Shown piece by piece: positions 4,775 through 9,869 of a DNA stretch of 32,350 nt. The notes beneath the pieces were generated by a model. The model had not been told where the DNA came from and ran no database searches. It was given only the letters and a program-made list of their open reading frames with translations. The translations under genes and the position numbers were made by a program. Source of the stretch: Gemmatimonadota bacterium (GTDB lineage: Bacteria; Gemmatimonadota; Gemmatimonadetes; Longimicrobiales; Gaopeijiaceae); the NCBI GenBank assembly GCA_022827345.1, contig JAJDTB010000016.1:1-32350 (forward strand). The letters are read 5' to 3'. Position 1 is the stretch's first letter, and each line of letters starts with the position of its first letter.

Positions 4775-6400
4775 TTACCGCCTCAACACGCGGCCCGGCA
4801 GCGCGCCCGTCACCCCGCCATCCGCATAGACGACGGTCCCCGCCACCCACACCCGCTCGATCCCGGCCGCCGTCAGGTGAGGCTCGGAGGTGGTCGACCG
4901 GTCGATGACGGTGGCCGGGTCGAAGAGCACCAGGTCGGCGGGCGCTCCCGCGCGCAAAACGCCGAGGCCGGCCAGCCCCATGTGTGCGGCCGCGAGCCCG
5001 GTCATCTTGTGCATCGCCTCCTCGAGGCCGAGGCGGCCTTCCTCGCGCACGTACCGCCCCAGCACACGCGGGTAGGCCCCGAAACCGCGGGGGTGGGCGC
5101 CGCGCAGCCCCCCGTCCGACGAGACGTTGGTGTGCGGCCACGCCATCAGCGTCGCGATGTCGTCGAAGTTCATGCTCCGCGCCACGATGCTCTCGCCGCC
5201 GTCCTCCCCCGCCGCCTCCGCGGCCTCCGATTCGGCGATCAGGTCCAGGTAGGTCGTCACGGGGTCGGTGCCGCGCGCCGCCGAGATCTCCGCCAGCGTC
5301 ATCCCCTCCAGGGTCGGGTCGGGCCCGAAGCGGCCGATGATCATCCCCTCGGGCGCGACCAGCTCTTCCAGGGCGTAGCGTGCGGCTTCCCGATCGGTAA
5401 AATCGCGATCCGGGAACAGCACCGTCATGGTCGACTGCCAGTATTCGTACGGGTAGACGTCGGCGGTGATGTCGAGGCCGGCGGCGCGCGCCTCGTCGAG
5501 CCGCGCCAGGATCTCGCCCGCCTGACCCCAGAGCCCCCGCGCGGCGAGCTTGAAGTGCGAGATCTGCACGGGGAGGCGGGCGCGCTCCGCGATCTCGATC
5601 GTCTCCTCGATCGCTGCGTGCAGGGCGCGGTCCTCGCTGCGCATGTGCGAGATGTAGCGGCCTCCGCCGGCCGCCACCGTCATCGCGAGCGCGACGACCT
5701 CGTCGGTCGACGAGTAGATGCCCGGATCGTATTCGAGGCCCGTCGAGAGACCCAGGACGCCGGCGGCGAGTTCGGCTTCCAGCAGCGCCTGCATGGCGGC
5801 CACCTCCTCGTCGGTCGCCTCGCGGCGGAAGTCGTCGCCCATCACCTGCCGCCGCAGCGTCCCGTGGCCCGCGTACGACGCCACGTTGACGGCCGCGGGC
5901 GTCGCCTCGAGCGCCGCGAAGAAGTCGGCGATCGGGTAGCGCGAGCCACCGTCCTGCCCCGCGACGATGGTGGTGATGCCCTGGCTGACCGCGGCCAGCG
6001 CCGTGAGTTCGCCGAGCAGGCCGCCGTCGTGGTGGCTGTGCGTGTCGATAAAGCCGGGCGCGAGGACGAGGCCGGCGGCGTCGTGGACCGGCTCGCCGTC
6101 TGTGGGAGTGAGGGCGTCGTCCCCGTCGTCGGCGGCCAAGGCCGCGATCGTCCCGTCGGCCACACGCAGGGAGCCGATGAAGCCGGGGCTCCCCGTGCCG
6201 TCCACGATCGTCGCGCCCTGGATCAGGAAGGACTCGGCGGGGGTGACGGTGTCGCCGCAGCCGGACAGCGAGGAAAGCCAGGCGACCGCCAGCAGGGCCG
6301 TGAGGACGCGCTGGCTCATCCTCCCGCGGCGGCGTTCCGAACGGTGAACCAGCTTGCCCGCCAGGGAGGCCGCGCGGGATTCGACGCTCTTGTCAACCAT
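4775..6400 (-). CDS. N-acyl-D-amino-acid deacylase (D-aminoacylase family amidohydrolase), probable lipoprotein
   Basis: 541 residues from the ATG at 6400. Amidohydrolase signatures are THSHHDGG near residue 120 (first metal site), YISHMRSED, VQISHFKL, and the family hallmark SSDGGLRGAHPRGFGAYPRV with a final ADLVLFDP segment. These enzymes remove the acyl group from N-acyl-D-amino acids using zinc. A hydrophobic stretch ending in LSGC (Cys near residue 48) indicates a lipoprotein. The start is uncertain. ATG 6400 gives a long basic leader. ATG 6319 gives a normal signal peptide, but its GGGAGG touches the ATG with no spacing. The promoter side contains two palindromes described separately. 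Confidence 0.88.
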   Translation of the reverse strand: MVDKSVESRAASLAGKLVHRSERRRGRMSQRVLTALLAVAWLSSLSGCGDTVTPAESFLIQGATIVDGTGSPGFIGSLRVADGTIAALAADDGDDALTPTDGEPVHDAAGLVLAPGFIDTHSHHDGGLLGELTALAAVSQGITTIVAGQDGGSRYPIADFFAALEATPAAVNVASYAGHGTLRRQVMGDDFRREATDEEVAAMQALLEAELAAGVLGLSTGLEYDPGIYSSTDEVVALAMTVAAGGGRYISHMRSEDRALHAAIEETIEIAERARLPVQISHFKLAARGLWGQAGEILARLDEARAAGLDITADVYPYEYWQSTMTVLFPDRDFTDREAARYALEELVAPEGMIIGRFGPDPTLEGMTLAEISAARGTDPVTTYLDLIAESEAAEAAGEDGGESIVARSMNFDDIATLMAWPHTNVSSDGGLRGAHPRGFGAYPRVLGRYVREEGRLGLEEAMHKMTGLAAAHMGLAGLGVLRAGAPADLVLFDPATVIDRSTTSEPHLTAAGIERVWVAGTVVYADGGVTGALPGRVLRR

Positions 6401-6444
6401 CAATATGTCGCCTTTACCTTACATATTGTAAACTGTTGTTTACA
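6401..6444 (-). promoter_or_regulatory. AT-rich double palindrome, probable operator/promoter of the deacylase gene
   Basis: Two perfect inverted repeats lie between thyX and the deacylase gene. The first is CAATATGT (6401-6408) and ACATATTG (6421-6428) with a 12-base gap. The second is TGTAAAC (6427-6433) and GTTTACA (6438-6444) with a 4-base gap; they share two bases. The second has the form of an operator for a dimeric repressor such as a TetR-type regulator. On the minus strand, TACAAT (6430-6425) could serve as a -10 element, although no good -35 was found. In RNA, the first repeat would put AAGG/AAAGG, the likely ribosome site for ATG 6400, in a 12-base loop. The AT-richness stands out strongly from the surroundings. 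Confidence 0.6.
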
Positions 6445-6470
6445 CATGGATGCGCCAAACGCCGGTCTCG

Positions 6471-8051
6471 TCAGGCCCGATCCACCTTCGGCACGGCCTT
6501 CAACATTTCGGCGGCGACATCCTCCGGATCGCGCATGGCGGCCAGGTCCAGCTCGTAATCCGGCACCTCGCGCGGCTCCAGCTTGGCCTTGAACTCACGG
6601 ATCTCGCGGCCCGACAGGCCCAGCCCGGCGAGGTCGGCGTTGGTGAGCTCGGCCCCGTCGCGCGCGGCCACCCCGTCGCCGTCCGCCGACACCAGGCGGG
6701 AGAGCGCTGCGATCTCGCCGCCGGTGAGCTTGTCGCCCATCACCTGATAGTCGATCCAGGCCTCGTAGCTCAGCGGCGCGACCCGCTTGACCATCCCCGC
6801 CATGACGCGGCCGAACTCCTGGATCTCCCACTGGGCGTGATCGTCGACCCGCAGCGTGAGGAAGTGGAGCAGGTTGTGGAGGTCGATCTTCCAGTACCAC
6901 TGGGTGTAGGTCGACAGCGGCAGGTCGATGCGGGCCAGTTCGCGGGCCACGTTCTCGCCGACCAGCCAGCCGTAGTCGCCGGCAGCCCGGGTCCGCACGT
7001 CCTCCCAGCGGCGGATGGCCTCCCGGTAGAACTCGGGGCTGACCGAGCCGGGCGCGCGGCCCTGGTTGCTGGTGGCGCTCTGCAGCGAGAACTGGTCGTG
7101 TTCCGGGCTGTAGAAGAGGAGCGGCATGAGGCTGTAGCGACCGCTGTATTCGTTGACGGAGTTGTGGGTGACGATGCCGTTCGCGACGAAGTTGTGGTGC
7201 GGGCCCTCGACCTCGAGGTCGTAGGTTTCACGTTCGCCTGCGTATTCGAAGCGGGCGATGCGCACGAGCTTGGCCTGGTAGCTGACCCGGCCCCAATCCA
7301 GCCGCTCGGCCGCGCCATTCACATGCACGAAATAGTCACCGTGCCTCCAGACCGCGCGGCCGCCGGTCTCCCGAACCCCGGTTGCTCCCCGAAGCGTGTC
7401 CCAACCCCCGGCGAACAGAAACCGGTGATCGGCGGTCGCCTCGATCGACTTGCCGTCCTCCAGCACCATTCTGAAAACCGGCTTCACACCGTTTCGGTAA
7501 GCATCCACGATGCGGGCGTGCTGGAACGCCAGGGTGTCTTCGTTCACCTGCCGCAGCTTCATTTGCTTCACGCGGTCGCGGCGGGAGAACGGGTTGCCCT
7601 GCTTGTCCGGACGGGTCCTGTTTCGCGTAGGCTGGAAGCGTCGCCAGATCTCCTCGACAGGAAGCTTGTGCAGCTGGCGGCGGCGCCCTCTCGCTTCAGC
7701 ACCAGGCAGGTCGAAATAAACCTCCGTGCCCTCGGCCAGGCAGGCCGTCCTGTGCCGCACCCACTGCCGCGCCACGAACATCGGCATGGCGCAGTGGAAC
7801 TTGAACTCGACCATCTCGGACGGGGTCGTGTGGAGGTGGCGGCGCAGGTAGCGGATAAGCCCCCGGGTAGCCGAGACCTTGCGGGTCCCGTAGCCGTAGC
7901 TGACGCGGGCTGCGCGCTCCACTGAATCGTCGGTGCCCATGTAGTCGACGAGGGCGACGAAGCCGTGGTCGAGGACCGGGAAGTAGCCGCCCAGAATCTC
8001 TTCGGCGGCGGGGACGGTGGGGCGTCGGGTGGGGTGCGAGGTGGGTTCCAT
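6471..8051 (-). CDS. thyX: FAD-dependent thymidylate synthase ThyX, interrupted by an in-frame mini-intein
   Basis: 526 residues as translated; 332 remain after removal of the 194-residue intein. ThyX methylates dUMP to dTMP with methylenetetrahydrofolate, FAD and NADPH. The N-extein ends in RQWVRHRTA (residues 95-103) and the C-extein begins SVNEYSGRYS (298 onward). Joined, they restore the ThyX signature RHRX7S. Other recognisable ThyX segments are FKFHCAMPMFVARQW before the intein and STYTQWYWKIDLHNLLHFL after it. The start chosen is the ATG at 8051; no strong ribosome site is visible. No other thymidylate synthase is in the window, so splicing is probably needed for function here. It is divergent from the GGT-like gene, with 72 bases between. 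Confidence 0.93.
   Translation of the reverse strand: MEPTSHPTRRPTVPAAEEILGGYFPVLDHGFVALVDYMGTDDSVERAARVSYGYGTRKVSATRGLIRYLRRHLHTTPSEMVEFKFHCAMPMFVARQWVRHRTACLAEGTEVYFDLPGAEARGRRRQLHKLPVEEIWRRFQPTRNRTRPDKQGNPFSRRDRVKQMKLRQVNEDTLAFQHARIVDAYRNGVKPVFRMVLEDGKSIEATADHRFLFAGGWDTLRGATGVRETGGRAVWRHGDYFVHVNGAAERLDWGRVSYQAKLVRIARFEYAGERETYDLEVEGPHHNFVANGIVTHNSVNEYSGRYSLMPLLFYSPEHDQFSLQSATSNQGRAPGSVSPEFYREAIRRWEDVRTRAAGDYGWLVGENVARELARIDLPLSTYTQWYWKIDLHNLLHFLTLRVDDHAQWEIQEFGRVMAGMVKRVAPLSYEAWIDYQVMGDKLTGGEIAALSRLVSADGDGVAARDGAELTNADLAGLGLSGREIREFKAKLEPREVPDYELDLAAMRDPEDVAAEMLKAVPKVDRA
7161..7742 (-). other. Mini-intein (194 aa) inside ThyX, without homing endonuclease
   Basis: The insertion spans residues 104-297 of the precursor. 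It starts with Cys1 in CLAEGTEV (block A). It contains GKSIEATADHRFLF (block B, TxxH) near intein residue 100 and YDLEVEGPHHNFVANG (block F). It ends in VTHN (block G, penultimate His and terminal Asn), with Ser as the first C-extein residue. All residues needed for standard class 1 protein splicing are present. No LAGLIDADG or HNH endonuclease motif is seen, and the ~85 residues between blocks A and B are Arg/Lys-rich. It should self-excise and ligate RHRTA to SVNEY. Confidence 0.92.
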
Positions 8052-8123
8052 GGTGGAAGCTACGTTGCGCCCCACACCATCGGAAGGCAAGATCACGGAA
8101 TCCACCCCTCCAGGGGAGCTCGA

Positions 8124-9869
8124 ATGCTCGCATCGAAACCCAAACCGAGCGGCCCAATGCGTCAGGTTTTCACGCTGACGGCGACACTGGTCAGCGTGCT
8201 GGCGCTGTCGTCGTGCGGTCCTCGGGCCGAGCCGAACACCCCCCGCGGCATGGTCACCGGCACCACGGGCGCACAGGCCATCGAGGGCGGCGTCGAGATC
8301 CTCAAGGCCGGAGGCAGCGCCGCCGACGCCGCCATGTCGACCGCCCTCACCCAGATCTGCATGGCTGCGGGCTCCTGGGTCAGCTACGCCGGCCTCATGA
8401 CGATGGTCTACTACGACGCCGAGAGCGGCGAGGTCCACAACATGAACGCGGCCTACAACACCGTCGCCGCCGAGACCGACCCACTGACCATCCCCGGGAT
8501 CGACCTGACCGCCGGTTTCGGAGGCTTCGAGGCCGAGCCCAACGGCCGCACCGTCCTGGTCCCCGGCTTCATGAAGGACGTCGAAGCCGCGAACGAGCGC
8601 TTCGGCAAGCTGCCGTTCAGCGACCTGTTCACGTCGGCCATCGCGTGCGCCGAGGATGGCTTCGAGTATCAGGAAGGCAACGCGGGGCAGTATGCCTTCA
8701 GAGAACAAGTGTTGAGCCGTCTGCCCGAAACGAAGGCTGTCTTTACAAAAGCCGACGGATCACCCTACGAAGCGGGCGACATGTTCACCCAGCCCGCTCT
8801 GGCGGGAACACTGCGCCGGATCGCCGATCAGGGCACGGACTACATGTACAGGGGTCCGTGGGCCGAGAAACTCGTCGCGATGGTCGGCGACATCGGCGGC
8901 AGGATGACTGTCGAGGACCTCGCCAGCTATGAAGTCCTCTGGAGCGAGCCCGCGCGGGGCAGCTACCACGGCTACGACCTGTATGCGCACGGCAGCCCGG
9001 CCGAGGGCGGCATCGGCCTGATCGAGGCCATGAACCTCGCCGAGCTCGCCGGCGTCTCCGACCACGGCCACTACGGCGACTCGCCCGAGGCGCTCTTCTG
9101 GCTGACCCAGATCGCCAGGCCCGGCCTCACCTTCGCGATCGGCGGCAGGGAGGCTGCCGACGGGATCGCGGCGATGATCGGCGCGGACCTGACCCACGAG
9201 ACGCGCGTCGAAAAGGAGACCTCGGCGAAGCTCTGGGGCGCCATCCAGGACGGGTCCTTCCCGGGCGTGGTCGTGCCGGAGGCGGGCGCCGCTCCGCACT
9301 CGGACGCCGTCGTCGCCATCGACCAGTGGGGCAACATGGCCGCGGTCGTGCACTCCATCAACACGGTGAGCTGGGGCACGACCGGCATCTTCGTGGACGG
9401 CATCTCGATCCCCGACTCCGGGATCTTCCAGCAGGGTATGATGGCCCAGATCGAGCCCGGCAGCCGCCTTCCCGACCCCACCAACCCCGGTCTGGTCCTC
9501 AGGGACGGCAAGCCGTTCATGGCCTTCAGCTCGATCGGTTCGGGGCTCCACCAGCGCACCATCGGCGGCCTGATCAGCGTGTTGGACTTCGGTCTCACCC
9601 CGGGTGAGGCGGTCGACAAGCCCGCGCTCGGCTCGTTCTCGTTCGGCGCACTCGCGGAAGACGCGTCCGGTCCCGCCGCGCAGGGGGTGGGCGTCGGCGA
9701 CTATTCGCCCGATTTCATCGCCGAAGTCGAGGAGATGGGCCAGCCCATCGAGGAAGACGACGCAACGCGAGGCTACTGGATCGCGATCATGATCGACCCG
9801 GAGACCGGCGAACTGCACGGCGCGTCGATCCGGGGGCTTGCTCTCGGCGGCCGGGCGGTCGGGTATTGA
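8124..9869 (+). CDS. Gamma-glutamyltransferase-family lipoprotein, probably not a catalytic GGT
   Basis: 581 residues from the ATG at 8124, with AGGGGAG well placed upstream. A signal peptide ending LALSSC marks a lipoprotein. The fold is recognisable: GGSAADAAMSTAL near the N-terminus, YMYRGPWAEKL in the middle, the late segment WGNMAAVVHSINTVSWGTTG, and the ending GELHGASIRG. However, the position of the autoprocessing Thr nucleophile (TTH in E. coli GGT) reads Ala390-Pro391-His392. The serine pair and diglycine of the classical active site are also not matched (RLPDPTNP and SSIGSG), and the glutamate-binding Arg segment reads AAYNTVAAE. It may bind peptides or use another chemistry; the family assignment is firm, the activity is not. 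Confidence 0.82.
   Translation: MLASKPKPSGPMRQVFTLTATLVSVLALSSCGPRAEPNTPRGMVTGTTGAQAIEGGVEILKAGGSAADAAMSTALTQICMAAGSWVSYAGLMTMVYYDAESGEVHNMNAAYNTVAAETDPLTIPGIDLTAGFGGFEAEPNGRTVLVPGFMKDVEAANERFGKLPFSDLFTSAIACAEDGFEYQEGNAGQYAFREQVLSRLPETKAVFTKADGSPYEAGDMFTQPALAGTLRRIADQGTDYMYRGPWAEKLVAMVGDIGGRMTVEDLASYEVLWSEPARGSYHGYDLYAHGSPAEGGIGLIEAMNLAELAGVSDHGHYGDSPEALFWLTQIARPGLTFAIGGREAADGIAAMIGADLTHETRVEKETSAKLWGAIQDGSFPGVVVPEAGAAPHSDAVVAIDQWGNMAAVVHSINTVSWGTTGIFVDGISIPDSGIFQQGMMAQIEPGSRLPDPTNPGLVLRDGKPFMAFSSIGSGLHQRTIGGLISVLDFGLTPGEAVDKPALGSFSFGALAEDASGPAAQGVGVGDYSPDFIAEVEEMGQPIEEDDATRGYWIAIMIDPETGELHGASIRGLALGGRAVGY

Follow-up and report, generated by a model that had tools for sequence, protein, structure and literature searches.

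A 43-bp tandem-dyad element dispersed through one genus of Gemmatimonadota, probably the operator of an XRE-HTH regulator encoded beside a ModABC-type transporter

The window analyzed here, that is, the whole stretch of 32,350 nucleotides from a Gemmatimonadota bacterium, carries on its minus strand an open frame with a thyX-type gene and an intein (6471 to 8708; Thy1, 1.2e-43; Intein_splicing, 1.3e-10), whose true start lies, as judged by eye, inside the frame near 8050. This gene runs into a second minus-strand gene, a D-aminoacylase-like amidohydrolase referred to below as the deacylase (4775 to 6400; Amidohydro_3, 3.5e-22), so that the gap between them is not divergent. It holds two palindromes that a first-pass annotation had described as overlapping by two bases, and both are real as written (CAATATGT at 6401 to 6408 with ACATATTG at 6421 to 6428, and TGTAAAC at 6427 to 6433 with GTTTACA at 6438 to 6444). 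The two palindromes are one object—a single copy of a 43-bp dispersed element made of four alternately inverted half-sites (6404 to 6446, no strand assigned), recognized by a weight matrix and bounded according to the alignment of 55 exact copies. The pair is better described as a tandem of 18-bp dyads that repeats every 21 bp, namely, a degenerate dyad defined by its TGT-N12-ACA anchors, TGTCGCCTTTACCTTACA (6406 to 6423), which forms the core of the first palindrome; a 3-bp spacer, TAT (6424 to 6426); and a strong dyad, TGTAAACTGTTGTTTACA (6427 to 6444), which is the second palindrome. Under the TGT-N12-ACA pattern, the two palindromes are twins, of which the first is the degenerate one. The arrangement TGT-N12-ACA, 3 bp, TGT-N12-ACA at 6406 to 6444 is the only occurrence in the window with up to one mismatch, compared to an average of 0.01 over 100 dinucleotide-shuffled versions, and the window copy reaches 42.3 bits with the weight matrix, whose 55 training copies include it, while the rest of the window stays at or below 8. 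The 39-bp core of the element lies 5 nt from the deacylase ATG at 6400 and 26 nt from the thyX-type stop at 6471, and a search of positions 6350 to 6560 returned no intrinsic terminator and no sigma-70 promoter.

The element is present in many copies. In the window's own genome, the dyad TGTAAAC-N4-GTTTACA occurs with up to two mismatches at 48 places, compared to 2 for the reversed control. The earlier impression that this dyad is operator-like was right. A neighboring dyad lies exactly 21 bp away at 45 of these 48 sites if at least four of the six anchor bases are required (38 if at least five are required), compared to 1 to 5 sites at eight other offsets. The tandem pattern as a whole has 61 exact copies in this genome and 130 with up to one mismatch (9 in the reversed control). 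Scanned with the weight matrix at a cutoff of 20 bits, 395 kb of the own genome contain 20 copies and 400 kb of a sister genome contain 18, a density that extrapolates to ∼240 copies per genome; a 255-kb contig has none after a single mononucleotide shuffle. Alignment of the 55 exact copies yields a consensus of roughly AA-TGTMAWG-N4-CATKACA-TWA-TGTMATG-N4-CWTKACA-TT, 43 bp long and sharp-ended, with flanks that carry no information and with the four half-sites spaced by about one helical turn. Related motifs occur in other systems: Ogr/Delta zinc-finger activators have TGT-N12-ACA as their site, and the TyrR box has the consensus TGTAAA-N6-TTTACA, which the strong dyad matches exactly, the element differing from TyrR boxes in its 21-bp tandem arrangement and its bias to gene 3′ ends.

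The first-pass annotation had proposed a dedicated D-amino-acid repressor acting at this site together with an RNA hairpin that would hide the ribosome site of the deacylase gene. The element does lie in the deacylase leader region, and, taken alone, a 33-nt segment of the window leader folds better than its shuffles (z = −3.6). The 61-nt leader, in contrast, does no better than shuffled sequences (z = −0.88; equaled or bettered by 37 of 200 shuffles), and at two other junctions, L120 and L117, most shuffles fold at least as well as the natural leader (199 of 200 and 170 of 200, respectively). Moreover, compensatory pairing among the 55 copies is not convincing, be it over the whole 39-mer or within either 18-bp dyad: two pairs reach nominal p values of 0.015 to 0.017 (13/27, with 36 compared to 29.4 expected, and 7/12 of the right dyad, with 38 compared to 32.3), and several facing position pairs covary below expectation. 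Whole-element and within-dyad hairpins of the attenuator or REP type are not supported by this pairing test, and a hairpin over the deacylase ribosome site is not supported either. When one half-site has the C/G variant, the facing half-site rarely has it too (1 of 110, compared to 6.9 expected), as would fit protein half-sites that share a total affinity. Because its facing bases show no convincing covariation, the element looks like a DNA site of the protein-binding type rather than an RNA hairpin.

Where the copies lie argues further against a gene-specific reading. They are found mainly behind genes, with convergent gaps over-used and divergent gaps avoided. Among 72 tandem sites—drawn, out of a genome count of 130, from loci fetched for having sites—66 fall between genes, 5 inside called genes, and 1 at a contig end, gene positions being those of a home-made gene caller. 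The 66 intergenic sites comprise 20 in convergent gaps (8.8 expected), 9 in divergent gaps (23.4 expected), and 37 in tandem gaps, and the median distances for the 72-site set are 31 bp to 3′ ends and 65 bp to 5′ ends, compared to 91 and 100 bp for random positions. A second set, comprising 795 kb on two own contigs and one sister contig, was not chosen gene by gene, although the sister contig was picked for having sites; it holds 38 elements, 4 inside genes and 34 intergenic, the latter with 12 in convergent gaps (4.5 expected) and 3 in divergent gaps (10.9 expected). As 11 of the 18 sister elements correspond to elements of the own genome, related sites are counted twice in the p values and are not all independent. 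With divergent gaps under-used in both site sets, the copies do not show the 5′-side preference of promoter operators. At six sites, the element shares five bases with the end of the upstream gene, whose stop codon is supplied by the TGTAA. REP and BIME repeats likewise form many short palindromic intergenic copies biased to 3′ ends and convergent gaps, and the element resembles them in being multicopy, palindromic, intergenic, and 3′-end/convergent biased; it differs from them in its lack of convincing hairpin covariation and in its protein-operator look with four half-sites.

Conservation of the dyads upstream of orthologous genes, which the first-pass annotation had proposed as a check, was borne out at the thyX-deacylase junction, where 8 of the 11 aligned sequences keep them with at most one anchor mismatch. 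One further junction has a decayed element (L136), and two have none (L119 and L121), which indicates that the element is conserved here, yet that the gene order does not require it. In the closest relative (L116), the anchors of the dyad corresponding to 6406 to 6423 are intact, and the other dyad has one anchor changed. By eye, the element extends into the deacylase start codon in L120 and L134, and its TAA doubles as the stop codon of the upstream gene in L123, L124, and L136. The closest relatives of the deacylase come from metagenome-assembled genomes titled mostly Gemmatimonadetes/Gemmatimonadota or Longimicrobiales, and from a source habitat that we take, on the basis of isolate names, to be sponges. 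Four metagenome-assembled genomes titled Gammaproteobacteria (L127, L130, L132, and L135) carry a deacylase 78 to 79% identical to that of the window; wrong titles or gene transfer are both possible.

One finding in favor of the D-amino-acid reading is that Amidohydro_3 occurs in 6 of the 55 genes flanked at the 5′ side by an element, against a base rate of ∼1.9% (p = 6e-4, post hoc), compared to 2 of the 74 genes with an element on their 3′ side (p = 0.4, also post hoc). The six genes lie in the own genome (G000) at C42:39170, C26:21852, C51:258716, C32:225903, C32:72524, and 4775 to 6400 of the window. A regulatory role at some amidohydrolase genes, the window deacylase included, may therefore be real. 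A repressor dedicated to D-amino-acid use is another matter: with 48 to 130 copies genome-wide, mostly at 3′ ends and beside unrelated genes of many kinds, with no convincing compensatory pairing, with the L120 and L117 leaders folding below most shuffles, and with L119 and L121 lacking the element at the very same junction, the repressor-plus-hairpin reading is largely refuted, and we consider it very unlikely.

The element is nearly restricted to one genus of Gemmatimonadota. In a search of 98 relatives, exact copies were found in 22 of the 23 own-genus genomes, at 11 to 189 each, and outside the genus in 5 of 75 genomes, at 1 to 3 each, the reversed control giving one match each in 5 of the 98. 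Within the genus, G010 has the most elements (260 with one mismatch, compared to 3 in the control) and G001 has only 11 exact copies, whereas G008 has no exact copy and, with one mismatch, 1 compared to 7 in the control. Among the 2.9 million viral contigs of IMG/VR, 97 carry a similar tandem pattern. Among the top-scoring matches are one site upstream of a HigBA-like pair and sites in prophages that separate divergent XRE genes (from translations, by eye); these matches pointed to XRE proteins but may be chance picks. Prophage-like contigs with a tandem TGT-N12-ACA pair include L284:2302–2344, where the pair lies between divergent XRE repressor-like and Cro-like genes, L300:11428, and L266:10751; at L307:904–946, a similar pair is located just upstream of what by eye is a HigBA-like toxin-antitoxin pair.

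When four genomes were scanned for XRE domains, orthologous genes with the element just upstream came up in G000, G010, and G014, and none of the five XRE hits of G008 was such a gene. The own-genome copy of this candidate regulator (G000 C32:211510–212616) encodes 369 amino acids, with an N-terminal HTH_3 (1.3e-13) and a C-terminal PBP_like domain (PF12727, 2.5e-43), which is a TaoR-like architecture, and its C-terminal half resembles, below the model cutoff, the end of the molybdopterin biosynthesis protein PRK14498. The regulator is thus probably encoded elsewhere than in the window, as had been supposed, with the candidate on contig C32; this candidate is an XRE protein, whereas the first-pass annotation had suggested looking near TetR-type genes. 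Candidate orthologues, at 61 to 95% identity, occur in 22 of the 23 genus genomes among the 98 relatives searched; none was found in G008, the only genus genome without exact elements. The G010 candidate has 48% identity and is truncated to 262 amino acids, ∼110 residues shorter (L424:3484–4269, minus strand), and in G005 the gene is split by contig ends. Inside the genus, this phyletic match is weak if taken alone, since it turns on a single absence (G008, 1 of 23). Independent support comes from the site itself, which is found upstream of the candidate gene at all 22 of 22 genus loci, at 30.9 to 63.2 bits; two of the genomes, G009 and G098, share contig number and coordinates and are probably one genome rather than independent cases. 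Outside the genus, proteins related over most of the length (36 to 60% identity) occur in genomes with 0 to 3 pattern matches, and the recognition-helix region GVSRQAI, nearly invariant in the genus, is similar there, so that the presence of the protein is not enough to explain why the element spread. An element above 20 bits precedes the candidate gene at two of eight outside loci (G047, 29.0 bits; G036, 25.8 bits), and the other six stay at or below 20 bits, among them G033 with a wider-spaced look-alike.

The dispersed sites could instead belong to another DNA-binding protein for which the site at the candidate's operon is just one target, given that the HTH families searched are a minority and that other XRE genes also lie near elements (L371 and L017). 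We regard this as improbable in view of the unbroken conservation of the element at the candidate gene in the 22 genomes, G001 with its few dispersed copies included, and of its presence above 20 bits at the candidate gene in two genera without any exact dispersed copy. Two other families were rejected: PadR (PF03551, 4 matches) and BlaI (PF03965, 5 matches) have no member beside any of the 48 sites, the nearest match being ∼2.3 kb away. For ArgR, the Escherichia coli operator consists of two 18-bp ARG boxes 3 bp apart (PMC6640053), the same geometry of boxes and spacer as in the element, from which the sites could be read as diverged ARG boxes. The element differs from that operator in half-site sequence and in its position at gene 3′ ends, and the distribution of ArgR does not fit: its C-terminal domain was found in G008, which has no elements, and gave no match in G010, which has the most. 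ArgR is therefore anticorrelated with the sites, and we give this reading practically no chance.

The genomic context of the candidate gene hints at its ligand. In 11 of 12 neighborhoods inspected by eye, it is followed by a ModABC-type substrate-binding protein, permease, and ATPase (the permease was not called in two), and Pfam matches in three neighborhoods comprise SBP_bac_11, BPD_transp_1, and ABC_tran; the Mod name is our reading from sequence and context. The site thus stands before the regulator's own operon, the position of an own-operon operator. The ModABC-type transporter in this operon, the only basis for a ligand, suggests that the candidate may bind molybdate or tungstate, and no molybdenum-enzyme theme appeared among 30 of the 55 5′-side and 10 of the 74 3′-side neighboring proteins. 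TaoR, the regulator of a tungsten enzyme, combines an HTH with a PBP-like domain (PMC11980592), and the candidate does likewise; its HTH is of the HTH_3 (XRE) family, compared to HTH_17 in TaoR-like proteins and HTH_9 in ModE. The candidate adjoins a ModABC-type transporter, as does the target of ModE, and differs from TaoR-like and ModE-type regulators in having no TOBE domain among its Pfam matches and in an operator dispersed over the genome. In the titles and abstract openings of the literature matches listed, there is no account of the element or of an XRE-PBP_like mod regulator.

Comparison with the sister genome shows how the copies turn over. Eighteen of the 20 elements on C32 and C67 of the own genome have some syntenic sister sequence, and of these the sister retains 11. 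Two others have lost one of their dyads through a half deletion, one has been deleted outright, one belongs to a MITE-like repeat missing from the sister, and three could not be aligned (two of the three were inspected). In the 11 kept pairs, anchors are identical at 128 of 132 positions (97%), other element positions at 276 of 341 (81%), and 30-bp flanks at 443 of 660 (67%, without gaps), figures that come from copies selected as kept, two of whose pairs are only 28/43 identical. The copy in front of the regulator gene itself shows no difference between the two genomes (43/43). The MITE-like repeats form a family of about 230 to 250 bp (C13:55484–55731 [L243], C15:6165–6391 [L244], and C8:85053–85300 [L242] of G000), with terminal inverted repeats, ends AGTGTCCTGTCCCGGAA...CTAG, and the element core in the middle, and no autonomous transposon with two such ends was seen in the 3-kb loci. 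At L039:3809–9865, several elements, some of them degenerate, lie within ∼6 kb beside what by eye are short toxin-antitoxin-like and transposase-like genes.

These repeats raise the question of whether the element is a selfish or neutral repeat, MITE- or REP-like and with no cellular role, that came to resemble the mod operator by capture. The central position of the core between terminal inverted repeats, the MITE-like copy absent from the sister, and the larger-repeat arms that surround the core at 8 of 14 G010 loci (two of them overlapping) all favor such a reading. Yet any similarity to the MITEs is confined to 17 of 72 sites, several of them through the core alone, so that a MITE origin for all copies is not supported: terminal inverted repeats frame a handful of copies, and most lack them. 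Further, the flanks carry no information, kept copies retain their anchors while their interiors drift, and, leaving aside the MITE-like copy, none of the three absences that can be aligned shows a clean 43-bp insertion. We therefore consider a purely selfish or neutral repeat unlikely.

Taken together, the element is probably a genus-wide 43-bp operator of the XRE-HTH and PBP_like regulator, multiplied from the mod operon and kept mainly at gene 3′ ends. This view builds on the anatomy of the element, its copy number, its near restriction to one genus, its 3′ bias, its retention in the sister, the phyletic match, and its presence at the regulator's own gene; from these we infer binding, oligomeric state, ligand, effect on transcription, and the role of the 3′-end copies. 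Four HTH units of the regulator would occupy the element, as a tetramer or as two dimers, with one half-site per helical turn. The ancestral site would be the operator in front of regulator-modA-modB-modC, the regulator's own operon, and would serve there as an autorepressor site of the molybdate/tungstate type; this site would then have multiplied within the genus and been maintained mainly at gene 3′ ends. The bound complex there would most likely form a block or insulator between transcription units, and copies in a 5′ position, such as that at the thyX-deacylase junction, would also lower read-through into, or initiation at, the next gene. The simplest account is thus that a molybdate-type uptake operon has long had an autoregulatory operator, which multiplied in one genus. 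Besides the read-through block or insulation that we prefer, the 3′-end copies may serve chromosome organization or titration of the regulator, or they may reflect tolerance of a spreading site. Some observations speak against the operator reading: operators are not usually placed at 3′ ends, and such a placement may be a matter of tolerance rather than function; G010 has the most elements yet a truncated regulator; and XRE genes other than the candidate also lie near elements. More tentatively, we speculate that the mod autorepressor became a chromosome-wide 3′-end binding protein that, at tens to hundreds of sites, blocks or insulates transcription between adjacent genes or organizes the chromosome, possibly under molybdate/tungstate control, with its operator also carried, and so spread, by MITEs; as a whole, we hold this fuller scenario to be possible but doubtful.

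The genus offers a natural series, from 11 to 189 exact dispersed copies per genome, together with outgroups in which the operator is confined to the regulator's operon and with one relative where the searches returned no regulator and no exact site. Such a series allows one to test how the regulator of one operon turns into a DNA-binding protein of global reach, and what leads bacteria to maintain protein-binding sites downstream of genes. A further lesson is that dyads of this kind, seen at a single locus, are readily misread as gene-specific regulation. As a minor observation, the tRNA and Rfam search of the MITE loci found tRNA-Sec near one only; a tRNA-Sec gene lies at L059:6024–6116 (minus strand), and this lineage thus probably uses selenocysteine.
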